Shown: piece by piece, positions 47,547 to 64,000 of the stretch
How positions within the stretch are numbered: the stretch's first letter is position 1
Layout of the letters: each line of letters begins with the position of its first letter
Source: Runella sp. MFBS21
Lineage (GTDB): Bacteria > Bacteroidota > Bacteroidia > Cytophagales > Spirosomataceae
Assembly: GCF_029433105.1 (NCBI RefSeq)
Contig: NZ_JARNTW010000001.1
Coordinates: 124,001 to 188,000, forward strand
Direction: 5' to 3'
DNA length: 64,000 nucleotides
The notes under the pieces: model-generated
The model's database searches: none
The model's input: only the letters and a program-made list of their open reading frames with translations
What the model was told of the DNA's origin: nothing
Program-made: the position numbers and the translations under genes

Positions 47547-48332
47547 TTACAAACTTACGGCTTCCCTCCATTTTTGGGCGCTATTTTGGTCAATAAACAG
47601 CGTAGCATTAGGGTGCTTACGCAAAATCGTTGAGGGGTATAATTCTTGAATATCATCTATCAAAGTATGATAGATTGCTTCTGCCTTGTGAGCCGCAGGC
47701 ACCATACAAAATACACTTGGGGCTTTGACTAGCGCCGGAATCGTAAGCGTAAGGGCATACTCTGGTACTTGTTCGAGTGTGGCAAAACATCCATCATGCA
47801 CTTGCTGTAGGCGGCTTGTAAGGTCTAGGTCAATTCTTTTTACCAATACAGGGTCGTCAAAAAATGCAACGTGGGGGTCGTTGAAAGCAATATGACAATT
47901 CTCGCCGATACCCATAAATACAATGTCGGTAGGGTACGCCTCCAAGAGTGCCGAATAGCGTTGACATTCTTCGGCGGGGTCAGAGATATTGCCGTTGAGA
48001 TAATAGACGTTTTTAAGAGGTACTTTGTCAAAAAAACGGTCTTTCAAAAAATTCCCAAAACGTTGTGGTGCGTCATCGGCTAAGCCAATGTATTCGTCCA
48101 TATGAAAGGCATTTACCCGTCCCCAATTGATGCCCTCCTGAAGTGACAATGCATCCAAAAACTCATTTTGGGAAGGCGCTGCTGCAAATATGATATTAAC
48201 TACGTCTTGATTTTGGAGTAATTCTTTGATTTTAACGGCGGCCATTTCAGCTGCATTTTGACCCAATTCTTGACGCGTTTCAAAAAGTTTAACGTTGAGT
48301 TGGTCAACGATTGTTTCTTGTAATGGATTCAT
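47547..48332 (-). CDS. nagB: Glucosamine-6-phosphate deaminase-like protein
   Basis: A 261-residue member of the NagB/6-phosphogluconolactonase fold. FHMDEYIGL keeps the catalytic Asp region. The active-site loop reads GIGENCHIAFNDP where E. coli NagB has GVGNDGHIAFNEP: the catalytic His is kept, the first Asp is Asn and the last Glu is Asp. Asn at the first position is common, but the Glu-to-Asp change and the Cys are less usual. The adjacent nagA and permease support conversion of GlcN-6-P to Fru-6-P. Confidence 0.82.
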   Translation of the reverse strand: MNPLQETIVDQLNVKLFETRQELGQNAAEMAAVKIKELLQNQDVVNIIFAAAPSQNEFLDALSLQEGINWGRVNAFHMDEYIGLADDAPQRFGNFLKDRFFDKVPLKNVYYLNGNISDPAEECQRYSALLEAYPTDIVFMGIGENCHIAFNDPHVAFFDDPVLVKRIDLDLTSRLQQVHDGCFATLEQVPEYALTLTIPALVKAPSVFCMVPAAHKAEAIYHTLIDDIQELYPSTILRKHPNATLFIDQNSAQKWREAVSL

Positions 48333-48498: not shown

Positions 48499-49707
48499 TC
48501 AGATAGTTGACTTTGTCTTGAATCCGACCTGATAATTTGAATAAACCACTCTTCCCTCTACCATCGTCATACTTACCGTGATGTCTTTATCGAAAATCAC
48601 AATGTCGGCATCTTTCCCTTTGGCCAACGAGCCTTTCTTTTCTCCTACACCCATGATACGAGCAGGTGTAGTACTCGCCATTTTGACGGCTTCGAGCAAG
48701 GAAACATCGGCCATAAAGACCATATTTCTGACCAAACGGTCGAAGGTAGCGACACTGCCCGCAAAAGACGTGCGGTCGGGGAGTTTGGCAACCCCGTCTT
48801 CAATAATGACCTTCAGTCCATTTTTGAGTGAACCTAGCGTACTTTCACCCTCTGGCATCCCTGCACCACGCATAGCGTCAGTGATAAGAGCGGTACGGTC
48901 AGCACCTTTGATTTTGTGAACCAATTTGAGAAGAGGAGCTGGCAAATGAATGCCATCGCCGATGATTTCGACATCTAAGTCTAGCAAATAAGCACTTTCA
49001 ATCACTCCTGCATAGCGGAAGGCATTTTTACGAGTTACTCCCGACATAGCCGAATACAGGTGTGTAACGAGCGAATATCCATTTTCATATGCCTCCAGCA
49101 CGTCATCATAAAAGGCATCGGTGTGGGCAATAGCTGCTAAAATTCCTTTTTGACGAAGTCGTTGCCCAAAAGCAATAGCGCCGTCTAGTTCGGGTGCGGC
49201 ACTCCATCGTACAATCGACGACGAATGAGCGAGTATCTCTTCGTATTCGGCAGGGTCAGGATTGCGAATATAGCGCGGGTCTTGCGCCCCTCGCTGACTT
49301 AGGGCAAAATAAGGGCCTTCGAGATGTATCCCCAAAAACGCCGCCCCACTTGTATTCAAGCGATTGGCATTTTCATAGACATCGAGGGTTTGAAGTAAGT
49401 CTTCTTTTTCGGCGGTGAGTGTAGTGGGTACGAGGGCTGTGGTGCCGTATTGGGCATGGAGTTGGGCTATTTTCAAGAAAGCTTCTTCGGTGCCATCCAT
49501 AAAATCGAACCCTCCTCCTCCGTGCACATGAATATCAATAAAACCTGGAGCGATGTATAGCCCTTGGGCGTCTATTTCCTCGGCGTCGGGTACTTCTACG
49601 TTACCTTCGTGAACCCCTAAAATTTTCCCGTCTTCCACAACTACCGTTCCGTTTTTAATGGCGCGGAAAGGAGTAAGAACGGTACCGTTGGTTATCTTTA
49701 TTTTCAT
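48499..49707 (-). CDS. nagA: N-acetylglucosamine-6-phosphate deacetylase
   Basis: A 402-residue metal-dependent amidohydrolase. It shows the metal motif GFIDIHVHGGGGFDFMDG, AIAHTDA and THLYSAMSG, and the ALITDAMRGAGMPEG region with the catalytic Asp. It removes acetate from GlcNAc-6-P, giving the substrate of the next enzyme (nagB, 166 bases downstream). The upstream permease makes a complete GlcNAc import and entry pathway, except that no GlcNAc kinase is seen in the window. Confidence 0.93.
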   Translation of the reverse strand: MKIKITNGTVLTPFRAIKNGTVVVEDGKILGVHEGNVEVPDAEEIDAQGLYIAPGFIDIHVHGGGGFDFMDGTEEAFLKIAQLHAQYGTTALVPTTLTAEKEDLLQTLDVYENANRLNTSGAAFLGIHLEGPYFALSQRGAQDPRYIRNPDPAEYEEILAHSSSIVRWSAAPELDGAIAFGQRLRQKGILAAIAHTDAFYDDVLEAYENGYSLVTHLYSAMSGVTRKNAFRYAGVIESAYLLDLDVEIIGDGIHLPAPLLKLVHKIKGADRTALITDAMRGAGMPEGESTLGSLKNGLKVIIEDGVAKLPDRTSFAGSVATFDRLVRNMVFMADVSLLEAVKMASTTPARIMGVGEKKGSLAKGKDADIVIFDKDITVSMTMVEGRVVYSNYQVGFKTKSTI

Positions 49708-49788: not shown

Positions 49789-51111
49789 CTATAAAGACCA
49801 GCGTTTTACTTTATGGCCGTAAGCGGCATAATACACCAAATACAAATAGCAAGGGAATAATACCCAGTAAGCGGTGCGGACATCATACAAATCGGCAAAA
49901 TATCCGTAAAACAAGGGCATGATGGCATTGCCACAAAGCCCCATAATCAAGATAGAAGCGCCTAGCTTGGTATAACGCCCCAGACCATCAAGTGCTAAGG
50001 GCCAAATACCTGCCCATACCAAGGAATTGGCCAACCCTAACAAGACCACAAACCAAATTGAGAGATCAGCGGTATGACCTAGAAAAGAGACTGTTCCTTT
50101 CGCGAAAATGATGAACAAAGTAAATATCGTGCCCAATACCGTACAAAACCGTAAAGCATTGACTTGGCTAATGAATCGAGGAATAGTAACGATACCGATG
50201 ATATAACCTGCAATCGTACAAGCCAAGGTATAAGAAGGAAATGTTTTGGCTTTGAGCAAGTCAATCCCCATCGAATTGGCATAACCAATGACGGTATCAA
50301 TCGCGATTACTTGAGTACCTACGTGTAGGAAAATGGCCACAGCCCCTAAAATCAAATGTGGAAACTGAAAAATACTGTTTTTGCCCGCATTGGCCGACGC
50401 CACTTCGGGGCTTTCGTGCTCGGTGTTGATTTCGGGCAAAGGCGAACGATAGACCAAATAACCCAGTACAAATAAAAATACGCCTAAAACAGAGTAAGGA
50501 GTAATGACCCGTCTCACCAATTCATCCAAAGCTGCTCCTCGTTCGGCATCACTCATGGTACTAAGTTGGGCAAACAAATCGGTATCGGTAGGTCTTAAAA
50601 TGACCGCTGCAAATACCAATGGCGACAAAATTCCCGCTGCTTTGTTGCAAATCCCCATGATACTTATACGCTGAGCACCACGTTCTTTAGGCCCCAAAAT
50701 CGTAATGTAAGGATTGGCCGCAGTTTGAAGAATAGCCAACCCTATACCAATGGTAAAAAGACCCGCTAAAAAAACGCCGTAGGTGCGCGTCATAGCCGCT
50801 GGTACGAAAATAAACGCCCCCAATGCCATAAACCAAAAACCAAACATCATTCCTTTTTTGAATCCTTGGGTTTTGAGCAAATACGATGCCGGCACCGACA
50901 TGATGAAGTAGGCGATATAAAACGCAAACGCTACCAGATATGCCTGAAAACTCGTAAGCTCACAGGCGATTTTGAAATAAGGAATCAGGATAGAATTGAC
51001 CCAAGAAATAAAACCAAAGATAAAAAACATCAACCCGATGAGGAAGATAGAAACGGTGGTTTCGCGGGGACTTAGGCTGCTTACTTCAACGGCAGCAGTA
51101 GAGGGTTTCAT
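49789..51111 (-). CDS. Sugar MFS permease, NagP/FucP-like
   Basis: A 440-residue major-facilitator protein with 12 helices starting at ATG 51111. Features of the FucP/GluP/NagP subfamily are FFIFGFISWVNSILIPYFK, SVPASYLLKTQGFKKGM, LQTAANPYITILGPKERG and RISIMGICNKAAGIL. A TTG at 51153 would add 14 residues without support. Downstream nagA and nagB suggest that N-acetylglucosamine is the cargo. GlcNAc specificity is inferred. Confidence 0.87.
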   Translation of the reverse strand: MKPSTAAVEVSSLSPRETTVSIFLIGLMFFIFGFISWVNSILIPYFKIACELTSFQAYLVAFAFYIAYFIMSVPASYLLKTQGFKKGMMFGFWFMALGAFIFVPAAMTRTYGVFLAGLFTIGIGLAILQTAANPYITILGPKERGAQRISIMGICNKAAGILSPLVFAAVILRPTDTDLFAQLSTMSDAERGAALDELVRRVITPYSVLGVFLFVLGYLVYRSPLPEINTEHESPEVASANAGKNSIFQFPHLILGAVAIFLHVGTQVIAIDTVIGYANSMGIDLLKAKTFPSYTLACTIAGYIIGIVTIPRFISQVNALRFCTVLGTIFTLFIIFAKGTVSFLGHTADLSIWFVVLLGLANSLVWAGIWPLALDGLGRYTKLGASILIMGLCGNAIMPLFYGYFADLYDVRTAYWVLFPCYLYLVYYAAYGHKVKRWSL

Positions 51112-51144
51112 AGCAAGAAAAGGGGTTTCAGGTTGAATTTGTTT

Positions 51145-51183
51145 GAACCACAAAGAGCCTATAGAATCGCTTCTTTGTGGTTC
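51145..51183. repeat. Palindrome between oxidoreductase gene and permease gene
   Basis: GAACCACAAAG pairs with CTTTGTGGTTC (11 bp), and the loop folds further (AGAGC/GCTTCT with a bulge). No T-run follows. The CACAAAG theme is shared with the hairpin at 46076-46116. It separates the Tat-exported oxidoreductase from the nag genes and may be an attenuator or a dispersed repeat. Confidence 0.5.
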
Positions 51184-51194
51184 TGAAAGAATCG

Positions 51195-52562
51195 CTACAC
51201 GGTAGGCTCCCAGCCTTTTTCGTATTCGCGTTTCCAGAGTTTTTGGGCTTCTTTATTGTTTTTGATATGTCCGTTAGAAGGGTCAATATCAAGGATACTA
51301 TTGGAGCGAATCGCGATATTACCTAGTTGACAAAGTAACGTGCTCTGATGCCCTCCCACAATACCAGAAGCTAAGGTTGACCCTTGTTTGATAGCTGATA
51401 CAAAATTCTGGAAGTGGAATGCATCAAGTGCCTGCGACGGATCCATTTTGTTGCGTGGGTCGATGACCAAATCATTTTTTACATCCTTTACAATCTTATT
51501 GTCTAAATCGTAAATTTTGTAGGCATTGCCACCGCCATATTCTAATGTGCCTTTTTCACCATAAAATGATACTCCTACACTGCTTCCTTCAATGTTGCGG
51601 CTATTGCAACTGCGGCCTTCCCAAGTCATAAACTTATCTTTACCAAACTCTAAGTTAATCACTTGCGTATCGGGAGCTTCCCAGTCATCTTGATAACGAT
51701 AGCGCCCACCCGACGAGGATACTTTGGTTGGGTATTCAACTTGCAACCCCCATCGCATCAAATCAAGCATGTGCGTGCCATTGTTGAGGGCTTCGCCGGT
51801 GCCCCAATGCCAAAACCAGTGCCAGTTATAGTGAATCACATTGTCTTTGTAAGCTCGGCGTGGGGCTGGCCCTTGCCACAGGTCATAATTGAGCCACGAA
51901 GGTACCGCTGCCGCTTTACCGATTCCGATTGAGGCGCGGTTGTTGGTGTACCAGCCTTTGGCGAAATAAGGCCGACCAATCACTCCATCATGTATTTCCT
52001 GAATGGCTTGCTTCACATTAGGCCACGAACGACGCTGATTCCCCATCTGAATCACATTTTTGTATTTGGCGGCTACTGCCATTAGCAATTCACCTTCATT
52101 GGGATTATGACTACATGGTTTTTCAAGATATACGTGTTTGCCTGCTTTCGACGCCAAAATCGCCGCCGGTGCGTGCCAATGGTCAGGAGCTGCCACGATA
52201 AGCCCATCCATGTTTTTGTCTTCCAGCGCTTTGCGAAAATCAGGCGTATCCTTCGGCTTTGAGTTTTGGATAGTCTCTACGGCCTTGATACATTTTTCAG
52301 CAGCACGAGAATCTACATCCGAAATCGTAACTATCTCACAGTTGGGTTGTAATGCAAAATTTTTGGCCAAGGCTAAACCACGGCTATTGACCCCCATTAC
52401 TCCGAGTCTTACTTTTTCGTTGGCTCCTATGATGCGTCCATAGCTTTTCGCACTGACGCCCGGTAAAATTCCACCAACGGTGATGGCGGCCGTTCCGGTC
52501 AAAGTCTTTTTGAGAAAATCGCGTCTCGACGCACTGTTTGAAGAGTTTTCCTGCTTATTCAT
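51195..52562 (-). CDS. Tat-exported Gfo/Idh/MocA oxidoreductase
   Basis: A 455-residue protein with a twin-arginine signal (SASRRDFLKKTLTGTAAITV). The mature part has the Rossmann start KVRLGVMGVNSRGLALAKNF, the GLIVAAPDHWHAPAA loop and YLEKPCSHNPNEGELL with the catalytic EKP-like motif, then the C-terminal substrate domain. Tat export means that the protein folds with its nicotinamide cofactor before leaving the cytoplasm. Such exported members probably oxidise sugars or sugar-like rings. The HiPIP-like gene is next upstream (28 bases). Confidence 0.9.
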   Translation of the reverse strand: MNKQENSSNSASRRDFLKKTLTGTAAITVGGILPGVSAKSYGRIIGANEKVRLGVMGVNSRGLALAKNFALQPNCEIVTISDVDSRAAEKCIKAVETIQNSKPKDTPDFRKALEDKNMDGLIVAAPDHWHAPAAILASKAGKHVYLEKPCSHNPNEGELLMAVAAKYKNVIQMGNQRRSWPNVKQAIQEIHDGVIGRPYFAKGWYTNNRASIGIGKAAAVPSWLNYDLWQGPAPRRAYKDNVIHYNWHWFWHWGTGEALNNGTHMLDLMRWGLQVEYPTKVSSSGGRYRYQDDWEAPDTQVINLEFGKDKFMTWEGRSCNSRNIEGSSVGVSFYGEKGTLEYGGGNAYKIYDLDNKIVKDVKNDLVIDPRNKMDPSQALDAFHFQNFVSAIKQGSTLASGIVGGHQSTLLCQLGNIAIRSNSILDIDPSNGHIKNNKEAQKLWKREYEKGWEPTV

Positions 52563-52590: not shown

Positions 52591-52926
52591 TTATTTGCTT
52601 TGAGGAACCCAATAAGTACAATAGCCCGTAGCCTCTACAGGGCCTTTAAACAGCATACAGCCTCCGCAAGCTTTTTGCTCTTTGGGCGGAAGCCACAAAT
52701 TACAATTGCTGCATTGAGACTCAGCTTGGGGTGACACCGCTACATAGCCTAATTTCTTTCGGGTCTTCAGGTCATTTTCCGATAGTCCCGATAAGTCTTT
52801 ACAAGGGTCAATGTTTACTTTTGAGTTCTTTTCCTCAGAAGTCGATTTTGACTGGCAGCTACTCACCCAAATTCCTAAGGCAGGGATAGTGTAGAGCGTT
52901 TTTTCGATAAAATTCCTTCTTTTCAT
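52591..52926 (-). CDS. HiPIP-like iron-sulfur protein, Tat/lipoprotein signal
   Basis: An 111-residue protein with a twin-arginine start (MKRRNFIEKTLYTIP) and a lipobox (GIWVSSC), so it is probably exported folded and anchored as a lipoprotein. The C-terminal part has four cysteines with high-potential iron-sulfur spacing: CSNCNLW, then GGCMLFKG, then GYCTYW. Such proteins carry one 4Fe-4S cluster and pass single electrons in the periplasm. It lies between the PVC-type dehydrogenase-like gene and a Tat-exported oxidoreductase, so it may accept electrons from that pathway. The exact ligand choice is inferred. Confidence 0.8.
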   Translation of the reverse strand: MKRRNFIEKTLYTIPALGIWVSSCQSKSTSEEKNSKVNIDPCKDLSGLSENDLKTRKKLGYVAVSPQAESQCSNCNLWLPPKEQKACGGCMLFKGPVEATGYCTYWVPQSK

Positions 52927-52960: not shown

Positions 52961-55066
52961 TTATGGGTTTTTGCTTGTGTTAGAGGAAATTAAAAATTCA
53001 ATGTTTGCTTTGGTAGTGCTGTCGGCAGTTGCGACTTGTTTTTTTAGTATTTCCTTCAAAGAATCTTCAGGTATTACTTTTAGTTTTTTCATTCCTCTTA
53101 TTGCTCCTTTCACCACCCAAATTTGCGACTCAGACCCTTCTTCAAATATCCCGAATAGCTCAGCGATTTCCCCTCTACGATTACGAGCTCCGATGACGTG
53201 CCCAAATTCTTCTAAAAATTCATTTTTTGCAAGAACAGTTTGTTGGAAAAAGTTTTTTTGCTGTAATCCCTTCAACAAACTTAACGAAGCTCCCGTCTCT
53301 GCGCTCAACACACCCATGCGAAACCATTTGTCTGAAACTTGCTTTTCTAGCACGCTAGCCAATGCTTCCGTGCTTTGAGGAGTCATAAACTGACCTACAC
53401 TCAAACACGCCTGAAAAGCTACTCTAGGAGAGGTGTCTTTAGTGGCAGCTAGTATTTGGGCAAAAAGCGTAGGAAAACGCTCCGCTTCGGCTACAGCATA
53501 GGCTCTTATTTCGGGTTGTTTGTCTTTCAAAACTTCAGCTACGAGACGCTCTTCCAAAGCATTAAGACCTTCCAGTGTAAAAAAGGCGTGTAAACGAGCA
53601 TGAGGATTTGCATCTTTTAGCAACATTTCTTTCAGCGATGCTACCACCGATTTGTCCTGTTTTTCGAGCAAAAGGCGTTGTGCTTGTAGCCTCCACCATT
53701 GCTGAGGATGCGCCAAAAGAGCTACTAATTCGGCCGCACTTTTCGACCTCAACCGAGGCTGAACGGGCGTAGGTTTAGCGCCTTTAGGTATAATACGATA
53801 AATCCGTCCCAATTGACTACCCTTGAAAAAATCCATTTCTTCTTTTAAATCTTCGGGAATCGCCGTAGGAGTTTCGATGTGTTGACGATACATATCAATT
53901 ACATACAAAACGCCATCAGGTCCCACGCTCAACTGAACAGGACGAAACCAAGGGTCGGATGAGACCAAAAACTCCTTATCTTTTTCTTTGTCGCCTCTTT
54001 TGGCAATAAAAGTGGGACTATTGGAAGCCAAAGTAAGTATGTCTCGATGCACCAGATTGCCAGCCACTTCTCCCGTAAAAACCGACCCTTGGTATTCTTT
54101 GGGTAATAAGTCTGCCCCATAAAAAGTACCGCCCGAAGCTCCCGTAAAGTGGTCTTCGGCGTATTCATGACGGTCTAGCTTGGCTTCGGCAAATTGTTCG
54201 TTTCGGCGTTTGGTTCGTTCTTTACGCCAATAGGGCGGTGGGGTTTGCTGAAACATTTCAGGGTCGTGGTCAGAGATATTGAGTGCCACATCGTAAGAAG
54301 GCAAAAACCCGTGACGATACAGATACCGCCCTGCGATAGGCGCATGCTGAATATGAATGGAGTTTTCGGTAAAAAAACGATTTCCCCAATCATCTACCGC
54401 CATCCCAAACTGCCCCGAACTAGACTCAATTTCAAACTTCCCTTTGTCTAATCGAAATCTAAAATCTCCACCCTTGATTGAAATAGCAGGAGCTTGGGGA
54501 TTTCTTAAAAACTTGATTTCGCCTGCTTGCCCACAGTTAGAAGCATAAATCCAGTTATCTACATTGTAATGCAAATTGGTGATTTGAGCTTCGGAATTGC
54601 TGGCAAAAAAGCCCGTAAAAAGCACTTCCTTCACATCAGCGCGGAAATCGCCCGTTGTGTCTTTCAAAAACAAAATATCGGGCGCAGCGGCCACCAATAG
54701 CCCCCCTGCCCACGGCAAAATACTGGTAGCCTCAGAAAGATGATCCGCAAAAACGACGGCGGAGCCAATCCGTCCGTCTCCGTTGGTATCTCTCAATAGC
54801 CGAATCGCCCCGTTGAGCGTGCCATCTTCGGGTTTGGAAGGATAGTCGGGCATTTCTACTACAAAAGCATTTCCTTCTTCGTCAAATACCATCTCTACAG
54901 GGTCGAGTACCTGAGGCTCAGTAGCGAAAATGTCAACAGTAAGTCGGTCGTCGCTCAAGGTGAAACTTTTAAGAGCCTCCTCTGCTGTGAGCGAATCGGT
55001 ATAGTGTCTACAGGATAAACTCATCCCTACCAAGACGAGAAGCCATAATTTTGTTGGAGCATTCAT
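52961..55066 (-). CDS. PVC-type membrane-bound dehydrogenase domain protein with HEAT repeats, no heme motif
   Basis: A 701-residue lipoprotein (GMSLSCRH lipobox at Cys19). The beta-propeller N-half matches the TIGR02604 type (VEMVFDEEGNAFVVEMPDYP, LLRDTNGDGRIG, YVIDMYRQHIETP). From about residue 430 HEAT-type helical repeats follow (LLAHPQQWWRLQAQRLL, LLKDANPHARLHA). Relatives usually end in a c-type cytochrome, but no CxxCH is found anywhere here, so electrons would need another carrier; the HiPIP-like gene lies 34 bases downstream. Substrate unknown; a sugar or alcohol is plausible. Confidence 0.85.
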   Translation of the reverse strand: MNAPTKLWLLVLVGMSLSCRHYTDSLTAEEALKSFTLSDDRLTVDIFATEPQVLDPVEMVFDEEGNAFVVEMPDYPSKPEDGTLNGAIRLLRDTNGDGRIGSAVVFADHLSEATSILPWAGGLLVAAAPDILFLKDTTGDFRADVKEVLFTGFFASNSEAQITNLHYNVDNWIYASNCGQAGEIKFLRNPQAPAISIKGGDFRFRLDKGKFEIESSSGQFGMAVDDWGNRFFTENSIHIQHAPIAGRYLYRHGFLPSYDVALNISDHDPEMFQQTPPPYWRKERTKRRNEQFAEAKLDRHEYAEDHFTGASGGTFYGADLLPKEYQGSVFTGEVAGNLVHRDILTLASNSPTFIAKRGDKEKDKEFLVSSDPWFRPVQLSVGPDGVLYVIDMYRQHIETPTAIPEDLKEEMDFFKGSQLGRIYRIIPKGAKPTPVQPRLRSKSAAELVALLAHPQQWWRLQAQRLLLEKQDKSVVASLKEMLLKDANPHARLHAFFTLEGLNALEERLVAEVLKDKQPEIRAYAVAEAERFPTLFAQILAATKDTSPRVAFQACLSVGQFMTPQSTEALASVLEKQVSDKWFRMGVLSAETGASLSLLKGLQQKNFFQQTVLAKNEFLEEFGHVIGARNRRGEIAELFGIFEEGSESQIWVVKGAIRGMKKLKVIPEDSLKEILKKQVATADSTTKANIEFLISSNTSKNP

Positions 55067-55156: not shown

Positions 55157-56419
55157 TTACTTGGGGATTTTTACTAAATCTTGTATTTCGTGGCCTTCGT
55201 GGTCAAAACGGGCTAAAGTATAAACGCTACCGTCGTGACCCACGGCAATAGAGTTGACATAAGTCGGGCGACTACCATCAGGATAGAAAATAGGGCCGTG
55301 GTCTTTGTAAGTTTGAGTAGGAATATGAAACGTAACCAAATGCAAATTTTCTAAACCTTTAGCGGCTCCTTTGGCGATTTCGTCGGCTCCTTTTAAGCGT
55401 TTACCATCAATGTAAATAGGGCTACCCGTGAGATAATAAATGGTTTCATTGTCGGGTCCAGGCTGAAAACCCAAATATCCATAGCTAAATTGGTCAAACA
55501 TTCCGCTTTTTCGCGAAGGCTCTGAAGTAAGCCTTTCTACCAATTCTATTTTAGGGATTTTGGGATCAAAGCGAAACAGATAGCCCGAGTTTCCGTGGAT
55601 ACCATAGGCGACTTCTTCGGGTGCATACCAAAAGATTTTGCGCCAATTGTATCCCATACTTCCGGGACGGGTAGGGTCGTATTTGCCAAAATAATCCAAT
55701 CGTAAATCTACCCCTTCTAGTTTTTGAATTGATTCATTGTTAGGATGATACGTGAAAATGTCTCCTTCAGAAGTAGAAAAATAAACAGTCCCGTCGCGAG
55801 GGTCAACCACCATAGAGCGGCACAATACACGATAATCATCTCCCGGAATGCCCGCTTCGCCTTTGACCGATACCAGCCCGACGGTTTTGAGGGTTTGAGT
55901 ATTCAAATCAAAATGAATAAAATACCCTAACGGCCATGTGATTCCATATAAATGACCTCGCTCACGGTCGATAGTCATGGTAAGGATACCTTCTCCTTCT
56001 GGAGCAAGGGCTAAATTTTCAAACTGACCTGTTGCCAAATCATAAGATATAAAATGCCCGCCTGGATATAACGCTTTGCCCGCCGGCGCTGACACTGGCA
56101 AACGTTCCATACCATCAATCATGTCGTACACGCCTACATGCGTAGCAAAATAAAGCTTGCCATTGCTTTCATAAAATCGCACATGACTTTTGCCTTGCGG
56201 AATGGCATTGGCATTTTTTTCGCCGCATATTTCGGTCAGGTCAGCTACCCATTCGGTGAGGTCGGTGGCGGGGTCATAAGCATACATTTGACCACCAATC
56301 TCGTAAGATTCGGAGCAGAGAACATAATAAATTTTGCCGTTGCTTGCGGCTGTAATGGCATTGTAAGTATCATGGGCCAAATCAAAACCAGAGAAATAAG
56401 GAGTTGCAATCAGGGTCAT
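55157..56419 (-). CDS. Beta-propeller-like protein of unknown function
   Basis: A 420-residue protein starting at ATG 56419 (an open frame continues to 56497 without support). It is made of recurring strand pairs such as NGKIYYVLCSESYEIGG, GKLYFATHVGVYDM, GTVYFSTSEGDIFTYHPN, YLFRFDPK and GSVYTLARFDHEG, which suggests a 6-7-bladed propeller. No signal peptide or catalytic motif is visible. It lies between the PVC-type and ceramidase-like genes in the same direction, so it belongs to the same pathway. No family name is certain. Confidence 0.65.
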   Translation of the reverse strand: MTLIATPYFSGFDLAHDTYNAITAASNGKIYYVLCSESYEIGGQMYAYDPATDLTEWVADLTEICGEKNANAIPQGKSHVRFYESNGKLYFATHVGVYDMIDGMERLPVSAPAGKALYPGGHFISYDLATGQFENLALAPEGEGILTMTIDRERGHLYGITWPLGYFIHFDLNTQTLKTVGLVSVKGEAGIPGDDYRVLCRSMVVDPRDGTVYFSTSEGDIFTYHPNNESIQKLEGVDLRLDYFGKYDPTRPGSMGYNWRKIFWYAPEEVAYGIHGNSGYLFRFDPKIPKIELVERLTSEPSRKSGMFDQFSYGYLGFQPGPDNETIYYLTGSPIYIDGKRLKGADEIAKGAAKGLENLHLVTFHIPTQTYKDHGPIFYPDGSRPTYVNSIAVGHDGSVYTLARFDHEGHEIQDLVKIPK

Positions 56420-56533
56420 AAGTGAGAAGGATTTGAATTTGTCAAGGCACAACAATGACTTCAAAGGACTTTGGTTCTTTGCTAGTGTGCTTGACAATAA
56501 GTTTTTTAGCTATAAAAACGTTGTTTTCAATTG

Positions 56534-57877
56534 TTATTTAGGAGTAAGACCTACTTGAGCGGCTAATTTATCTATTTCTTGATAAATTAGCCCCGGCATA
56601 CGTGCATCCCAAACACTCGGCAAACCATACACCATTTGAGAAGAAGCCCCCTCATAGCCACCTTCTTTCAGAATAGTAGCCGACGGGATGTAGCCCATCA
56701 CGTCGTTGGAATAACCCATCACGAAGGCATCTTGTCCAAATCGCTTTTTGCATTCAATGGCATATTCTATCACTAGCTCTCCGCCAAAACTAAACAATGC
56801 TTGGTCGCCTATTTTCCAGATTTGGATGGGGTAGCTATAAGAAGAAAGAAAAGGTTTGCCTTGTTTTTTTTCATTCAAAAGTCTCGTAGCCCAGCGTTGC
56901 ATATAAGGGGCATCATCTTTTTGGACTTTAAGCAATTCGGCTTCCGTAGGGGGAGGCGACAAGGGCAAATCTATTTCAGCATAAGCCGTGAGAAGCTCCG
57001 CTGCCAACGGGCGCATAGGTTCTTCGATGACACGTTCTACTGCTGCCGCCAGCTCACGCCCGTACTGTTTTGCCAACGCAACCGTCCGACGAGGAAGGGG
57101 GTTTTGGTCGCCCGCAGCTCCCTGAAAAAACAAAGCAGTGGCCTCGGGATGGGCTTTTTCAAGCTCAATTTGAGCAAATCCCGGATAGTCTCCCGACAAT
57201 TGATAAATATCCAGTACCGTAGGATGGCACGCATACCCAAAAGCCAAAGCTTTGAGTACGCCTTTGGCATTGACGACTTTGATGACTGGTACTGCATAGT
57301 CGTTGGGGCCTTTGAGTTCTGTTTGTTCTCGCAAACTCCCTTCTTTATTGTTGCGACGATTTACCTGAAACCTTGTTACTCCATTTTGGGCAAATAGTTC
57401 GACTGGTTCCAAAGATTGAATGGCTTTGGCCGCCAATGCGATAACCTGCGCTTCTAATTGGCGAGAGTATTTGGCAATTTTGGCTTCTTCAGTTTCATTC
57501 AAGGGATAAATATCGTGCAAAGCATCGTCCAATACTGGTCCCGAATGCGTGTGGGAGCTGTTGAGAATGATTTGGGCTTTTGATAATCCAAACTGCCGCT
57601 TGAGCTGCTCCCGAATTCGGTCAGACATTGCCTTGGGAAACCCTAGCATATCAGTCGTAATAAGTAAAGCCTTTTGGCCTTTTTCGTCTTCCAAGGCCAA
57701 CGCTTTTGCCCACAAATTATGTAGTTTTCCTTCGGAAGCGTGCGTACGAGAAGCATAGCCTGCTTGCCAAATCGCCGTTTGAGGCGTGATAATGACTTTG
57801 GCTACGCCGGCTTTCCAACCTTTGGCCCAAGTGGTAAGACTCACCAAAAGACCAATCACCCAAAACATTTTTTTCAT
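56534..57877 (-). CDS. Neutral/alkaline ceramidase-like N-terminal-domain protein, exported
   Basis: A 447-residue protein with a signal peptide (MKKMFWVIGLLVSLTTWA). The mature part begins with GVAKVIITPQTAIWQAGYASR and contains the zinc-binding strand NSSHTHSGPVLDDA, LAFGYACHPTVLDIY, YPGFAQIELEK and FFQGAAGDQNP, all of the non-lysosomal ceramidase-type amidase. In Bacteroidota many such proteins act on amide-linked glycans or lipids rather than ceramide. The ATG overlaps the DegT gene stop (ATGA), so the two are translated together. True substrate unknown. Confidence 0.87.
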   Translation of the reverse strand: MKKMFWVIGLLVSLTTWAKGWKAGVAKVIITPQTAIWQAGYASRTHASEGKLHNLWAKALALEDEKGQKALLITTDMLGFPKAMSDRIREQLKRQFGLSKAQIILNSSHTHSGPVLDDALHDIYPLNETEEAKIAKYSRQLEAQVIALAAKAIQSLEPVELFAQNGVTRFQVNRRNNKEGSLREQTELKGPNDYAVPVIKVVNAKGVLKALAFGYACHPTVLDIYQLSGDYPGFAQIELEKAHPEATALFFQGAAGDQNPLPRRTVALAKQYGRELAAAVERVIEEPMRPLAAELLTAYAEIDLPLSPPPTEAELLKVQKDDAPYMQRWATRLLNEKKQGKPFLSSYSYPIQIWKIGDQALFSFGGELVIEYAIECKKRFGQDAFVMGYSNDVMGYIPSATILKEGGYEGASSQMVYGLPSVWDARMPGLIYQEIDKLAAQVGLTPK

Positions 57878-59274
57878 TTCAAACTGATGAGTTTATCGGC
57901 GTGAGTGTAGATTTTCTCAATGGCATTCACAATCTCATCCATATCGGCGCGTGTACCTAGGAGCATATTTTGTGTAAACCAAACTGCCTCTTCGTTGCAG
58001 AGTTTGTCATTTTGAGGGCAATGATTCCTTTCTACGTATCCTTTAAAATTCAATTGAGATTTTGGATACATTTTCTGGAAATTTTTCGATTGAAAAGCGT
58101 CATTGAGATAAGGCATATTGTTGAGCGTAGCGTAGCCTTTTGAACACGGAACTCCCTCCGCATTAAGTGCCTTTAAGAATGTATCTCTCGACAACCCCTT
58201 GAAATCTTGCTTTTTATAACGAAAAGGAAATAAATGAAAGGCTGCACGGGTTACATTGTCATATAATTGGTAGGGGACAATGCCCGGTATCTTTTCAATC
58301 TTCGCTTTTAAATAAGCCGCATTTTCGTTGCGCAACGTTGTTTCGGCATCTAGGCGTTTGAGCTGTGCTAATCCAATCGCCGCTTGGTACTCGGTGATGC
58401 GTTGTTTGTTGCCTTGCATAATCGTCCCGGCCCCAATCACGCCTGAGGCCATTCCATAAGGATTTCCGTAGTTGTGATATGAAAAACAACGATCCATAAA
58501 CAGGTCGTTGTTGCTCACGATAGCCCCCGCTTCGCCAATAGCCAAGTTTTTAGAGTTTTGGAAACTAAAACAGCCTGCATCCCCAAAAGTGCCTACTTGT
58601 TTGTGGTTTATTTCGGCCAAATGCGCTTGGCAAGCATCCTCAATCACGGCCAACTTGTGTTTTTTCGCGATTTCTAAAATCTTGGGCATATTGGCAGGTA
58701 AGCCCAAAATGTGCACCGGAATGATTGCCTTGGTACGTGGCGTAATTTTTGCTTCGATTTTGGCCGGGTCAATTTGAAAAGTTTCAGGGTCCACATCCAC
58801 AAAAACCGGCATCGCTCCGTTTGCAATCACGGGTGCCACTGTACCTATAAAAGTATAAGGCGGTACCAATACCTCGTCACCACCCCGAATATCCAATTGT
58901 GCCAAAGCCGTAATGAGGGCATTGGTACCGTTGACGACCGCCAAAGAGCGTTTTGCACCGACGGTTTCGGCCCATTTTGCTTCAAATTCAGTGACGACAC
59001 CCGCCCGTGACCATACGCCACTCCGAATCACTTCAAGGAGCTGTTTTTCGTCAGTTTCGGGCTTCCAAATCGGCCACGTGGGCCACGGTTTTGTCCGCAC
59101 GGGCTTGCCTCCTAATAGAGCAGGTGGCTCCGCCAACGAAAAAGTAACGGGTACTTCTTGTGGGATTGGCGTTTGAAGTTTTTCGGTGAGTAAGGTAGGC
59201 GTTAGCATGGCGCCTAAACCCGTCAGAGAATTGCGCTTCAAAAATTCGCGTCTGGAAAAGGGTTGAGAGGGCAT
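57874..59274 (-). CDS. Tat-exported DegT/DnrJ/EryC1/StrS-type PLP enzyme
   Basis: A 466-residue protein from ATG 59274 with a twin-arginine signal (FSRREFLKRNSLTGLGAMLT). The mature part is a complete DegT fold: VLVPPYTFIGTVAPVIANG, the PLP-pocket VIEDACQAH (Asp213), and the Schiff-base Lys242 in CFSFQNSKNLAIGEAGA. DegT enzymes are sugar aminotransferases or dehydratases and are normally cytoplasmic. Tat export fits a cofactor-loaded enzyme used in the periplasm. It stands 19 bases downstream of an exported Gfo/Idh/MocA gene and is coupled to the ceramidase-like gene. Aminotransferase against dehydratase is undecided. Confidence 0.9.
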   Translation of the reverse strand: MPSQPFSRREFLKRNSLTGLGAMLTPTLLTEKLQTPIPQEVPVTFSLAEPPALLGGKPVRTKPWPTWPIWKPETDEKQLLEVIRSGVWSRAGVVTEFEAKWAETVGAKRSLAVVNGTNALITALAQLDIRGGDEVLVPPYTFIGTVAPVIANGAMPVFVDVDPETFQIDPAKIEAKITPRTKAIIPVHILGLPANMPKILEIAKKHKLAVIEDACQAHLAEINHKQVGTFGDAGCFSFQNSKNLAIGEAGAIVSNNDLFMDRCFSYHNYGNPYGMASGVIGAGTIMQGNKQRITEYQAAIGLAQLKRLDAETTLRNENAAYLKAKIEKIPGIVPYQLYDNVTRAAFHLFPFRYKKQDFKGLSRDTFLKALNAEGVPCSKGYATLNNMPYLNDAFQSKNFQKMYPKSQLNFKGYVERNHCPQNDKLCNEEAVWFTQNMLLGTRADMDEIVNAIEKIYTHADKLISLK

Positions 59275-59293
59275 AGTAATGACTTTTTTAGAT

Positions 59294-60307
59294 TTATGCT
59301 TTTCTTGCTTTTTTGAGCACACTTTCGATGGTTACGGGTGCACCACCTTGGCGTTTGCTTTCGTCAGCTGCTTCCATAAAAGCAAAGATTTCAATGGTTT
59401 CTTCGGGGGTAACAGGCACACTTCCTGTATCAAAATAGTTGACAATATCTTTGAGCAACGGCTCATATCCACCATAAGGCCCTAAGACGATGTTGCCGTT
59501 TTGGGTATAAACCGTTCCGCCATAATCGTGTTTTCCCGTACGAGTGCCACGAAAAGTGCCTACTCGACCATCTGCCCAAGTACCTACTACAATATCCGTA
59601 CTGTCGTTGTTGACCCTCACTACCTGCTTGCAACCTGTGCCCATCACGGTATAGAGTGTCTCTACTCCATGAATACCGTACCAAAACAAATCGGGGTGCG
59701 TTTTTTCTAAAACGGCAGGACTAAAGGTATCTGCTCCTACTACGGTACTTTTATCCACTTTTTCGATTCCTTTGATATGGCGTAAAGAAGAGGCCGAGAA
59801 AACGGGTATTTTGTACTTTTTGGACGCTTCAAAAATAGCAATCGCATCCGAAAGCGAAGCGGCGATTGGTTTGTCAATAAAAAGACGTTTTCCTGATTTA
59901 AGAACCTGAATCGCTTGCTCCAAATGCAGGCGTCCGTCGTTGGTTTCGAGCAAGACTACGTCCACCTTTTTTAGCAAATCAGCAATCGAATCTACGATTT
60001 CTACATTGTATTTTTTTACTTCTTCGATATAGCCCGGAATACGTTTCGTACTACTTTCGATGTCTTTGCTACCGTATGGATAAGCTGCTACTATTTTATA
60101 ACCCCTAAAATCAGTACTCGCTTCAGGGGCGTTGAGTACTTTGGTGAAGGCCGTACTATGAGAAGTATCAAGTCCGATAATGCCCACCCGCTTGCCTTCC
60201 ACTATCGTCTGAGCAGAAATACGAAGAGGGTCTAACATTCCCAAAGTCAAAGTTCCTAAAGTGGCATTTTTTACAAACTTTCTACGGTTATATAGTGATT
60301 GAGCCAT
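59294..60307 (-). CDS. Tat-exported Gfo/Idh/MocA oxidoreductase, first gene of the catabolic run
   Basis: A 337-residue protein with a twin-arginine signal (YNRRKFVKNATLGTLTLGM). The Rossmann part begins KRVGIIGLDTSHSTAFTKVL and the EKP-like motif reads LFIDKPIAAS. A short substrate domain follows. It is the first gene of the minus-strand run, facing gntR across 155 bases that carry three operator-like sites. The adjacent DegT enzyme suggests a keto-sugar intermediate passed from one to the other. Substrate unknown. Confidence 0.88.
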   Translation of the reverse strand: MAQSLYNRRKFVKNATLGTLTLGMLDPLRISAQTIVEGKRVGIIGLDTSHSTAFTKVLNAPEASTDFRGYKIVAAYPYGSKDIESSTKRIPGYIEEVKKYNVEIVDSIADLLKKVDVVLLETNDGRLHLEQAIQVLKSGKRLFIDKPIAASLSDAIAIFEASKKYKIPVFSASSLRHIKGIEKVDKSTVVGADTFSPAVLEKTHPDLFWYGIHGVETLYTVMGTGCKQVVRVNNDSTDIVVGTWADGRVGTFRGTRTGKHDYGGTVYTQNGNIVLGPYGGYEPLLKDIVNYFDTGSVPVTPEETIEIFAFMEAADESKRQGGAPVTIESVLKKARKA

Positions 60308-60403: not shown

Positions 60404-60461
60404 TAACTTTACAAAGATAGTTAAAATTTGTTTACATTTTTGCATAAAATTTGATTACAAA
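60404..60461. promoter_or_regulatory. Three 23-bp-phased operator-like sites upstream of gntR
   Basis: TTTGTTTACAAA-like 12-mers start at 60404 (9 of 12), 60427 (10 of 12) and 60450 (TTTGATTACAAA, 11 of 12). The starts are exactly 23 bp apart. The last touches the gntR ATG (60463), suggesting autoregulation. The same motif occurs as two sites, also 23 bp apart, upstream of the SusC gene (61264-61298). Confidence 0.65.
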
Positions 60462-60462
60462 A

Positions 60463-61101
60463 ATGAAGGTTGATTCTCTTGCTAATAAAGTATATATAGA
60501 GCTTCGCAAAAAAATCCTCTCCAATCAACTCGTATCAGGCACGCGCCTTAAGGAGGATATTTGGGCCAAACGCCTAGATGTAAATCGTATGGCTGTCCGA
60601 GAAGCCCTCACTCGTCTTCTAGGAGAACAACTCATCGAAAATGGTGAAAAAGGCGGCTTCTTTGTAAAGTCAATGAGTGCAGAAGATGTAAGGCAAATTC
60701 GCGAACTCCGCGAAATTTTAGAATTGGGGGCGATTCGGCTGGCGATTCAGAAAATCGATGAACAAGGGATTCAGAAACTTGAGGAAATTTGCAATGATTT
60801 TACATCAATGGTAGAGCGAGGGTATTTTGGGGGTGCTTGTGAAGCTGATGTTAAGTTTCATGAAACCTTGATTGATTGTGCTCAAAATGAGAAATTAAAA
60901 GATATTTATGAAATTAGCAATATTCCCTTGTTTCATCAGAAGCTAGGCAAGTCGCAGACTCATATGGATGACTATGAGCTTACTGACCAAGAGCATCGAC
61001 AAATCTTAAAGGCACTCAAAGAAAAGGACATAAAGCTTGCGGAGGAGACTCTTAGTAAGCATCTTCTACGTGGCGAAGTAGAAGCATTGGAGTTGGACTG
61101 A
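60463..61101 (+). CDS. GntR-family regulator, FadR subfamily
   Basis: A 212-residue regulator starting at ATG 60463. The winged-helix DNA-binding part spans about 5-75 (LANKVYIELRKKILSNQL, the HTH region WAKRLDVNRMAVREALTRLL, FFVKSMSAEDV). The FCD effector domain follows (about 80-210), with helices around ELREILELGAIRLAI and the metal-type ligands in DVKFHETLIDCA and EHRQILKALK. Repeated operator sites before its own gene and before the SusC gene suggest that it controls both. The ligand is probably a sugar acid or catabolic intermediate. Confidence 0.92.
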   Translation: MKVDSLANKVYIELRKKILSNQLVSGTRLKEDIWAKRLDVNRMAVREALTRLLGEQLIENGEKGGFFVKSMSAEDVRQIRELREILELGAIRLAIQKIDEQGIQKLEEICNDFTSMVERGYFGGACEADVKFHETLIDCAQNEKLKDIYEISNIPLFHQKLGKSQTHMDDYELTDQEHRQILKALKEKDIKLAEETLSKHLLRGEVEALELD

Positions 61102-61441: not shown

Positions 61442-64000
61442 ATGAACAACTTTTTCCTACTCCGAAAAAAAGGAGTAAGTATGCTACTGCTTTGCCTACT
61501 TACCTCCATTGCGGTGTATGCCCAAACCCAAATCTCTGGTCGAGTAGTGGGTTCTGACGATTCGCAGCCAATTGCAGGGGCGTCAGTACTAATCAAAGGA
61601 AATACGACAAATGGCGCTATTACTGCTGCCGACGGCACTTTCAAATTATCGGTTGGCTCTAACGCGGTTTTAGTGATTTCTTATATAGGATACCAAGCCC
61701 AAGAAATTCCAGTAGGCAATCAAACCACTTTTAATATCTCTCTCACTCCCTCTTCTACGACTTTGGGTGAAGTAGTAGTAACAGGCTACTCTGCTGAAAG
61801 AAAAAAGGATATTACAGGGTCGGTATCGGTAGTGGATGTAAAAGCCATGAAGTCTATTCCGGCGGGGTCGGCAGTGCAAGCCCTTCAAGGCCAAGCGGCT
61901 GGGGTCAATGTGATTAGTTCGGGTGCCCCCGGTAGCCCAAGCAATATCTTCGTGCGGGGTATTTCTTCCTTTGGAAACACGCAGCCGCTTGTACTGGTAG
62001 ATGGCGTACAAGCCGAGCTCAACGACGTCAGTGCCGATGATGTAGAGTCGATTCAGGTACTTAAAGATGCTGGTGCGGCCTCTATTTATGGAGTTCGTGG
62101 TTCAAACGGTGTCATCATCGTTACGACCAAAAAAGGAAAATCAGGGCAGCCTGTGATTTCGTATGATGCCTACTACGGTAATCAGCAACCTTTGCAAGGA
62201 AATGTATTCAATTTGCTCAATTCGACGGATTTTGCTCGTTTGACCAAAATCGCTTACCCTACTACAGGCTTGTTTCAAAACGGTCTTCCTGACTTTACGT
62301 ATAGAGGTCCGGGTGCAACAGGGGTAGGAAAAGCAGGAGATGCCGCCGTAGACCCTTCTAAGTACAATTTCGACGCCAACGCGCCAGGTCGTAATTACTT
62401 GATTCAGGCTGTCAATAAAACAGGTACTGACTGGTTTCATGAGTTGTTTAAAAATGCCCCTATGACTAGCCACAACCTAACCGCGAGTGGTGGAACCGAC
62501 AAATCGAATTATATGGTTTCGTTGGGCTACTTCAACCAACAAGGTACCATGTTGAAGAGTTATTTGGAACGTTATTCGGCACGTATCAATACCCAATTCA
62601 AGATTAAAAACAACATCAGAGTTGGGGAAAATGTGTATATGTTTTATAAGAAAAACCCTGGTTTTGACAACCTAAGTACCGGAAATCCTATCGCTTGGAC
62701 TTACCGCGCTATGCCTATCATCCCTGTGTATGACATCAAAGGCAACTATGGTGGTACATTTGCTGGCCCAGAGCTAGGAAGCTCATCTAATCCAGTAGCG
62801 GTACAAATGAATACCGTCAACAACAAAAACAATGCTTGGGATGTAGTAGGAAATGTGTTTGCAGAAGTGGATTTCTTAAAGCACTTTACCGCTCGTACAA
62901 GTTTTGGGGGAACCATTGATAATCAGTACGCTACCAATTTCAACTTTACCCCTTATAACAATTCTGAAGGAAATACCAACCCCAACTCCTTCTCCGAAAT
63001 TGCGCTCTACAACAGTAACACCATGTGGACCAACACCCTTACTTATACCAATGCGTTTGGGAAACACAACCTAAAAGCGATTGTAGGTTCGGAGGCGATT
63101 CGCAATTATGGTCGCTATTTGATTGGGTCGGCAAGTAGATTATTTTCGACCAATTTTGATTATTTGAGCCTTTCAAACGGTACTATCAATATTACCAACT
63201 CCAGCAGTGCGTATCACAATACTCTCTTCTCCATTTTTGGTCGTGTTGATTATGCTTATGACGACAAATACCTCGTGGGTGTGACAGTTCGCCGCGACGG
63301 TTCTTCGCGTTTTGGGGCCAATCGCCGCTACGGAACCTTCCCTGCGGTATCATTAGGCTGGCGCTTGACAGGCGAAGAATTCTTGAAAGATGTAGCGTGG
63401 CTCAACGAGCTTAAACTCAGAGGTAGCTATGGTGTATTGGGTTCTCAAAACAACGTAAGTCCTCAGAATGCCTATACGCTATTTGGTGGAACTTTTGCCA
63501 ATGCCTACTATGATATCAATGGCAACAACGCCTTGGTACAAGGTTTTGCGCAAACTAGCATCGGAAACCCCAACACAGGTTGGGAGGAAAACATCGTGAC
63601 CAACGTCGGGTTGGATGCGACTATCCTAAACAATAAATTGGATGTATCGGTCGAATACTACCAAAAATCAATTAATGGACTGTTATTTACCCAACCTCTC
63701 CCTGCTACTGCGGGTGGAGCTACGGCTCCTACGGTCAATATCGGAGACATTCAAAACAAAGGGGTAGATTTGGGGTTAACTTACCGTCATGCAGTTAATT
63801 CTGAACTTAAATTTAACATTGGTGCCAATATTACCACTTACAAAAACAAAGTAGTAAATACGCCAAGCCCTGGGTATTTTGACGGAGCTAATACCCAAAA
63901 TTTAGGGAATGTAGTACGTAACCAAATCGGTCAGCCAGTAAGTTCGTTCTTTGGATATCAGGTGATTGGTTTATTCAAAAATGATGCAGAAGTGACGGCT
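61442..64000 (+). CDS. SusC/RagA-family TonB-linked outer-membrane protein, 3' end cut by window
   Basis: The first 853 codons of a nutrient-uptake porin are present, open to the window edge. A signal peptide ending at VYAQ (about residue 27) is followed by a CarboxypepD_reg-like domain (ISGRVVGSDDSQPIAGASVL, ending TTLGEVVVTGYS). The SusC plug follows, with SIPAGSAVQALQGQAAGVNV, FVRGISSFGN, PLVLVDGVQ and SIYGVRGSNGVIIVTTKKG, and then barrel strands. SusC proteins import glycans or peptides with a SusD lipoprotein, which would lie beyond the window. The start ATG 61442 is preferred because it gives a basic n-region. The GntR-type operator at 61264-61298 probably controls it. Confidence 0.93.
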   Translation, partial: MNNFFLLRKKGVSMLLLCLLTSIAVYAQTQISGRVVGSDDSQPIAGASVLIKGNTTNGAITAADGTFKLSVGSNAVLVISYIGYQAQEIPVGNQTTFNISLTPSSTTLGEVVVTGYSAERKKDITGSVSVVDVKAMKSIPAGSAVQALQGQAAGVNVISSGAPGSPSNIFVRGISSFGNTQPLVLVDGVQAELNDVSADDVESIQVLKDAGAASIYGVRGSNGVIIVTTKKGKSGQPVISYDAYYGNQQPLQGNVFNLLNSTDFARLTKIAYPTTGLFQNGLPDFTYRGPGATGVGKAGDAAVDPSKYNFDANAPGRNYLIQAVNKTGTDWFHELFKNAPMTSHNLTASGGTDKSNYMVSLGYFNQQGTMLKSYLERYSARINTQFKIKNNIRVGENVYMFYKKNPGFDNLSTGNPIAWTYRAMPIIPVYDIKGNYGGTFAGPELGSSSNPVAVQMNTVNNKNNAWDVVGNVFAEVDFLKHFTARTSFGGTIDNQYATNFNFTPYNNSEGNTNPNSFSEIALYNSNTMWTNTLTYTNAFGKHNLKAIVGSEAIRNYGRYLIGSASRLFSTNFDYLSLSNGTINITNSSSAYHNTLFSIFGRVDYAYDDKYLVGVTVRRDGSSRFGANRRYGTFPAVSLGWRLTGEEFLKDVAWLNELKLRGSYGVLGSQNNVSPQNAYTLFGGTFANAYYDINGNNALVQGFAQTSIGNPNTGWEENIVTNVGLDATILNNKLDVSVEYYQKSINGLLFTQPLPATAGGATAPTVNIGDIQNKGVDLGLTYRHAVNSELKFNIGANITTYKNKVVNTPSPGYFDGANTQNLGNVVRNQIGQPVSSFFGYQVIGLFKNDAEVTA

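Follow-up and report, generated by a model that had tools for sequence, protein, structure and literature searches.

Can an enzyme that depends on pyridoxal 5'-phosphate (PLP) and belongs to the DegT family work on amino sugars outside the cytoplasm? DegT enzymes are known from cytoplasmic amino-sugar biosynthesis, and to our knowledge PLP chemistry is rarely reported in the periplasm. The question is raised by a stretch of 64,000 nucleotides (nt) from the 7.9-Mb genome of Runella sp. MFBS21 (contig NZ_JARNTW010000001.1, positions 124,001 to 188,000; hereafter the window). Its minus strand encodes a DegT-fold protein next to a protein of the Gfo/Idh/MocA fold (Gfo), each with a predicted twin-arginine translocation (Tat) signal:

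59294..60307, minus strand: Gfo/Idh/MocA-fold protein with a Tat signal and a non-canonical GLDTSH loop, 337 amino acids (aa), PF01408 (below, the GLDTSH Gfo)
57874..59274, minus strand: DegT/DnrJ/EryC1-fold PLP protein with a Tat signal, 466 aa with ATG 59274 as start, PF01041 (below, the DegT protein)

We read the locus as one for the catabolism of N-acetylamino-sugar glycans that would run partly in the periplasm, with the Tat-exported DegT protein acting on an amino group, and we give this reading an even chance of being right. It is supported by a twin arginine (RR) kept across records from six phyla, by the PLP fingerprint, by TatC, by nag-like genes, by GH20 and GH109 genes and by the division of the genes into modules. 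We consider such an exported catabolic route a reasonable interpretation of the locus. Among the matches listed, in a search that mostly left out subscription journals, no title or opening of an abstract pointed to work on this gene cluster or on DegT proteins exported by Tat.

The DegT protein and its export signal

The sequence-only reading had placed adjacent DegT and Gfo homologues on the minus strand here, and both open reading frames (ORFs) are present and match their families above the Pfam cut-offs. The DegT protein matches PF01041 with 318.3 bits (cut-off 19.8), and its structure model has a mean predicted local distance difference test score (pLDDT) of 90.8. The best named relative, from Runella zeae, is 97% identical. 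As that reading also held, the key lysine is kept: Lys242 is invariant in all 49 rows of an alignment of chosen DegT proteins. Among the DegT-cluster ORFs longer than 380 aa, the S[FC]xxxK motif is present in 88 of 90, the EDA.Q-type motif in 85 of 90 and the GT-type motif in 87 of 90. Judged by these residues, the protein is a credible PLP enzyme with an intact-looking PLP site.

The listed ORF has a GTG start (59322), is 482 aa long and overlaps the Gfo gene by 29 nt. We dropped this start because more than half of 79 relatives begin matching at residue 16–23. The same matches make the ATG at 59274, which lies 19 nt past the Gfo stop codon and gives 466 aa, the likely start; the numbering of Lys242 agrees with it.

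By fold and by sequence, the best relatives are 7b0d, BtrR (2c7t and 5w71), Fic25 (8gyh) and the synthase of 3-amino-5-hydroxybenzoic acid (AHBA; 1b9h), with nucleotide-sugar enzymes close behind. The top relatives have small, non-nucleotide substrates, an assignment that we take partly from the titles of PDB entries. This ranking fits a periplasm without nucleotide sugars and leaves the substrate unfixed. BtrR, Fic25 and AHBA synthase resemble the DegT protein in fold and recur among its sequence matches, and differ from it in sequence (about 27–31% identity). They are biosynthetic, and we know of no export signal in them.

The RR signal of the DegT protein is MPSQPFSRREFLKRN. Within the DegT cluster (79 named loci), RR occurs in the first 80 aa of 89 of 91 ORFs and the fuller motif [STNGDQ]RRx[FIL] in 87. 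The four exceptions are a copy in locus L091 that has lost the motif, the protein of L103, which has no signal, that of L104, which is truncated where its contig stops, and, in L123, a second copy without a signal. The DegT proteins of L098 and L114 lie outside these ORF-filter counts; inspected by hand, that of L114 has RR. In the 49-row alignment, from which the four motif-less ORFs and many close relatives had been removed beforehand, RR is present in 100% of rows and the next Phe in 98%, and the commonest residue at the other signal positions reaches at most 71%. This pattern supports selection on the putative export signal.

Twin-arginine signals had been claimed for both proteins, and the claim holds up across relatives. 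The signal of the GLDTSH Gfo is MAQSLYNRRKFVKN, and RR is found in 25 of 28 of its relatives (full motif in 24 of 28). The Tat signals are real as sequence features, and export itself is predicted from them. The genome has one match to TatC. Among its full-length DegT proteins, one of six carries a Tat signal, namely the one described here. Of the best 30 of its 41 Gfo proteins, 20 carry an RR signal, and the remaining 10, inspected by eye, appear to be cytoplasmic. We therefore dropped Tat export of the Gfo as the unusual part of the locus and regard the signal of the DegT protein as the unusual one.

Records of the DegT subfamily come from Bacteroidota, Balneolota, Kiritimatiellota, Verrucomicrobiota, Planctomycetota and Acidobacteriota, and many are metagenome-assembled. 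On the DegT tree, which omits 17 loci and the ORFs of at most 380 aa, the Tat label needs five changes, so a single origin is not established. One Bacteroidales genome has four DegT genes in tandem (L091:10022-15950), the first of which has lost the Tat motif.

The adjacent Gfo-fold protein

Is the GLDTSH Gfo the redox partner of the DegT protein, as its position would suggest? The sequence-only reading had likened the pair to cytoplasmic couples in which a Gfo enzyme supplies a 3-keto sugar for amination, a role that would make it a nicotinamide adenine dinucleotide (NAD) enzyme. The protein has the expected fold: it matches PF01408 with 45.3 bits (cut-off 24), its model has a mean pLDDT of 86.7, and its fold matches among the 50 listed are Gfo dehydrogenases with template modelling (TM) scores of 0.58–0.69 by query length, WlbA, KanD2, GenD2, 1h6d and 1rye among them. 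The DKP motif pointed out in that reading is also kept, since D145-K146-P147 is invariant in an alignment of 25 relatives chosen from 28, as are G211 and H213.

The cofactor loop tells against this role. We aligned the protein with Gfo proteins of its own genome (29 of the best-scoring 30 of 41 PF01408 matches; 8 more outside the locus were not included). The glycine-rich dinucleotide loop GxGxxG is absent from the GLDTSH Gfo in this alignment, in which the other proteins have G-x-G in 27 of 29 cases and G-x-N in two. The loop reads G-L-D-T-S-H instead, and its GxDxxH pattern is invariant in all 25 chosen relatives. The sequence-only reading had made no mention of this loss. On the own-genome alignment we dropped the view that the GLDTSH Gfo is a NAD enzyme of the ordinary kind. 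To judge by sequence, its usual site for the cofactor appears to be lost, and it is probably not the redox partner of the DegT protein.

The likelier redox enzyme of the locus, and the likelier sugar 3-dehydrogenase, is a second Gfo at 51195..52562. It scores 160 bits with NF058561 (BT_2158-type glycoside 3-dehydrogenase), below the cut-off of 750.

A third Gfo (46131..47495), with a PF16490 domain, also has no glycine loop; EPGHFH stands in its place. It is a close relative of the solved structure 4oo3 (E 6e-175), an uncharacterised PF16490-type protein. The match between the GLDTSH Gfo and this family is weak (hhalign probability 51.5). None of its 12 aligned rows has RR and 11 have a hydrophobic start; the twelfth (L079) is incomplete. 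Among the relatives of the GLDTSH Gfo, Sec-like starts occur in three of 28 and in a fourth, from L165. Loop loss and export type agree in this way, which suggests that the two loop-less Gfo types may have become independent of cofactor loading in the cytoplasm. The glucose-fructose oxidoreductase of Zymomonas is a useful comparison: it too is a Tat-exported Gfo-fold protein (1h6d and 1rye are among the fold matches given above), and it differs in retaining the glycine loop and a tightly bound NADP.

Two proteins at L171:5077-5979 (GLSEHSA) and L171:9301-10302 (GLSPHSA) are weaker relatives of the GLDTSH Gfo that score above the threshold of the genome search and stand outside the counts. They possibly hint that Gfo proteins without the loop form a larger family.

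Neighbouring genes and two modules

The GLDTSH Gfo and DegT genes, in that order, head a minus-strand directon of 11 genes that runs from 60307 down to 46131 with intergenic gaps of at most 166 nt. The end of the DegT gene, with its stop codon, overlaps the ceramidase-like gene by 4 nt. The remaining nine genes are given in order, followed by the two on the plus strand:

56534..57877, minus strand: ceramidase-like protein (PF04734, N-terminal part), N-terminus Sec-type by eye
55157..56497, minus strand: SMP-30/strictosidine-synthase-like protein, probably a beta-propeller (propeller-like), a conserved DegT neighbour
52961..55066, minus strand: DUF7133/TIGR02604 protein, start lipoprotein-like by eye
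52591..52926, minus strand: small high-potential iron-sulfur protein (HiPIP) with an RR start
51195..52562, minus strand: second Tat-Gfo, GVNSRG loop, distant from the glycoside 3-dehydrogenase BT_2158 family
49789..51153, minus strand: FHS-type sugar symporter, NagP-like
48499..49707, minus strand: NagA, N-acetylglucosamine-6-phosphate deacetylase, TIGR00221
47547..48332, minus strand: NagB-like protein, motif GIGENCHIAFNDP
46131..47495, minus strand: Gfo-fold protein with a PF16490 C-terminal domain, EPGHFH replacing the glycine loop, Sec-like start (PF16490 Gfo)
60451..61101, plus strand: GntR/FCD regulator, divergent
61442..64000, plus strand: SusC-type TonB receptor, continuing past the window end

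The same order on a single strand recurs in several Runella, Dyadobacter, Spirosoma and Larkinella loci, and a full-length match to the GLDTSH Gfo is found in 12 of 13 genomes of the genus Runella. The DUF7133/TIGR02604 protein (52961..55066) has no CxxCH motif, though its model is named for a heme-binding CxxCH protein, and it adjoins the HiPIP with the RR start.

How tightly the DegT protein and the GLDTSH Gfo belong together was assessed in 395 evenly drawn Bacteroidota genomes, with 4 or 5 candidates scored per genome. The GLDTSH Gfo is found in 12 of these genomes and DegT in six. All six DegT genomes have the Gfo, with the genes adjacent in four; the hypergeometric chance of this co-occurrence is about 2e-10 on the assumption of independent genomes, and these genomes share ancestry. 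A search for the pair in other genomes, which the sequence-only reading had proposed, thus recovers it in these six, and leaves six genomes (L160 to L165) in which the Gfo occurs with no DegT (no match at E 1e-120). In all six of the latter, a member of the second-Gfo family, a NagA-like gene and a NagB-like gene lie near the Gfo.

A similar picture comes from 11 loci with the GLDTSH Gfo and no DegT on the stretch, five of which belong to genomes that have DegT at another place. Nine of the 11 have the second Gfo nearby (47–76% identity), eight a NagA-like gene (28–80%) and seven a NagB-like gene (38–69%), and none has a ceramidase-like or propeller-like gene. L166 and L170 have the GLDTSH Gfo without the second Gfo and without a NagA-like, NagB-like, ceramidase-like or propeller-like gene. 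The reverse count covers the 52 named DegT loci that span at least 21 kb, with neighbours counted at an identity of at least 45%. Of these loci, 37 have a ceramidase-like gene, 37 a propeller-like gene, 24 the GLDTSH Gfo, 16 a NagB-like gene, 15 the second Gfo and 14 NagA. Where the second Gfo is present, 14 of 15 DegT loci also carry the GLDTSH Gfo; where it is absent, 10 of 37 do. Gene content suggests a core module of the GLDTSH Gfo, the second Gfo and the NagA- and NagB-like genes, and a DegT module of DegT with the amidase-like (ceramidase-like) and propeller-like genes. We read these as two modules of one pathway, joined in Runella and its relatives.

What the other proteins would do was judged from family models. 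NagA (48499..49707) scores 284.1 bits with TIGR00221 (cut-off 225.65) and falls short of the stricter NF008371 (205.5 vs 483). The NagB-like protein (47547..48332) scores 127.1 bits with TIGR00502, below the cut-off of 236.9. At the Asp of the GxGxDGH motif, which we take to be the catalytic Asp of NagB, 27 of 28 copies have Asn and the remaining copy is incomplete. This score and the Asn, together with the low score of the NagP-like protein given next, suggest that the pathway may end in some variant of a hexosamine phosphate as substrate. The NagP-like protein (49789..51153) scores 379 bits with NF046060 (cut-off 625) and 239.9 with TIGR01272 gluP (cut-off 202.55). In the ceramidase-like protein, His109, His111, His218, Glu367 and Tyr396 are kept in at least 97% of 46 rows. 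These presumably correspond to the zinc site of neutral ceramidase, and for that reason the protein is plausibly an amidase. The propeller-like protein (55157..56497) matches no family above its cut-off.

Past the window end, the plus strand continues with a gene in the SusD position (assigned by gene position, its protein lying outside the scan), followed by creatininase, 3HCDH, MR_MLE, EamA, DHDPS, SDR, GH20, one unassigned gene and GH109. The GH20 and GH109 genes therefore belong to the divergent run. The directon and this run are probably an amino-sugar setting, and probably a catabolic one; the direction is suggested by the accompanying genes and not by the DegT protein. Of the claim that amino sugars are interconverted in the periplasm, possibly in the catabolic direction, the setting is supported (nag-like genes, GH20, GH109), and a role of the adjacent Gfo as the NAD enzyme that feeds the DegT protein is not. 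In locus L159, the creatininase-family protein (L159:5534-6328), encoded 3' of SusC and of the gene in the SusD position, has a sub-threshold match to the 3-dehydro-scyllo-inosose hydrolase IolN (75.4 bits, cut-off 245).

GH20 genes also occur near DegT elsewhere. A Parabacteroides DegT locus has two of them at most 7 kb away. They lie at L114:1437-3236 and L114:12805-14601, and a sulfatase/phosphodiesterase-like gene is also found around this DegT. In all, GH20 accounts for six of 158 scanned DegT-neighbour proteins among the matches listed (the 25 commonest families per scan), two of them the L114 pair, a count without a background control. The 158 comprise 149 hand-picked from 192 and nine from L114 and L123, and the L114 pair is among those added. 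The protein at L160:10318-11439 looked like a NagX-type acetyltransferase and has no Pfam match, and a similar-looking protein of L163 matches DUF5009 with 29.7 bits (cut-off 25); neither is used in the argument.

A proposed route and its rivals

In the route we propose, glycans would be trimmed to N-acetylhexosamine compounds. The DegT protein would load PLP in the cytoplasm and cross the membrane folded, via Tat. The ceramidase-like amidase would first release the amine, and the second Gfo would oxidise a hydroxyl, probably at C3. The GLDTSH Gfo, its canonical NAD binding lost, would probably be a lyase, hydratase or isomerase that acts on the resulting keto-sugar; it and the PF16490 Gfo would rearrange or cleave the keto compound. 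The DegT protein would remove or move the amino group of its substrate, which would be a free sugar or a compound like one and not a nucleotide sugar. The NagP-like symporter would import the products, which the NagA- and NagB-like enzymes would process. The sequences show the gene content, export signals, PLP residues, glycine-loop loss and module structure; we infer these reactions, their order, the substrate and the catabolic direction. A bolder version, which we hold only tentatively and think rather doubtful, combines a Tat-exported PLP aminotransferase with two NAD-less Gfo-fold types (GLDTSH and EPGHFH/PF16490) that would serve as cofactor-free keto-sugar lyases or isomerases. Those two types would be freed for Sec, and the PLP and NAD-Gfo enzymes would stay bound to Tat.

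Several observations weigh against the catabolic route. The occurrence of the GLDTSH Gfo in every DegT genome of the draw also fits a direct partnership. Most GLDTSH proteins keep Tat, and Lys146 and His213 are retained, which tempers the view that the GLDTSH Gfo needs no cofactor. More than half of the longer DegT loci (27 of 52) have no GLDTSH Gfo, second Gfo, NagA- or NagB-like gene at the identities used, so the DegT module also exists outside this setting. The NagB-like and NagP-like proteins score below the equivalog cut-offs, so the cytoplasmic substrate may not be N-acetylglucosamine-6-phosphate, and no sugar kinase match was found among the locus proteins scanned. By eye, the propeller-like protein has no clear signal in the Runella sp. 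MFBS21 genome. We also know of no amino acceptor in the periplasm.

The adjacent Gfo and DegT proteins could instead form a Tat-exported dehydrogenase/aminotransferase pair that interconverts a 3-amino sugar, a 3-keto sugar and the sugar, the reverse of NtdC/NtdA (kanosamine) or WlbA/WlbE (UDP-diacetamido sugars). These known systems combine the same two classes, and the likeness extends to individual relatives: WlbA, KanD2 and GenD2 are among the fold matches of the Gfo, and WbpE (= WlbE) and NtdA among the relatives of the DegT protein. The genes adjoin, the co-occurrence counts agree with a pair, and Lys146 and His213 of the Gfo are invariant. The known enzymes are cytoplasmic and use sugar phosphates or nucleotide sugars, and the adjacent Gfo differs from theirs in having no cofactor glycine loop. 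Some of its relatives have Sec-like signals, and it is retained without DegT near a different Gfo. We consider such a pair unlikely.

It is also improbable, in our view, that the exported DegT protein is a PLP enzyme other than a transaminase, such as an oxygen-dependent deaminase or oxidase, or an eliminase, that would need no acceptor, in the manner of PvdN. The periplasm should offer few free amino acceptors, and PvdN of Pseudomonas aeruginosa provides a precedent: it is a Tat substrate with an RRxFLK signal that is annotated as an aminotransferase (PMC6085387) and that appears, as a fold-type I PLP enzyme, among the new PLP oxidases of another account (PMC7497351). Export of a PLP enzyme by Tat is thus possible, as PvdN demonstrates (PMC6085387, PMC7497351). 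The active-site fingerprint of the DegT protein, lysine included, is nevertheless of the aminotransferase type. PvdN, moreover, modifies pyoverdine and is not known as a DegT protein, whereas the DegT protein described here sits in a sugar locus. We think it quite unlikely that the DegT protein serves a role outside breakdown, for example the tailoring of an exported glycolipid or aminocyclitol, with the nag-like genes as a separate neighbouring module. The 27 longer DegT loci without the nag-like module and without either Gfo type would fit such a role, and acyl amides are conceivable substrates of the ceramidase-like partner. This role is opposed by the single order and strand kept in several Runella, Dyadobacter, Spirosoma and Larkinella loci and the GH20 genes near DegT in several loci.

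If the reading as exported amino-sugar glycan catabolism is right, transamination or another PLP reaction of sugars would take place in the periplasm, in a subfamily with records from six phyla. The locus would then be a clear test case of how the need for a cofactor commits an enzyme to Tat instead of Sec, and it supplies candidates for missing steps in the breakdown of amino-sugar glycans.

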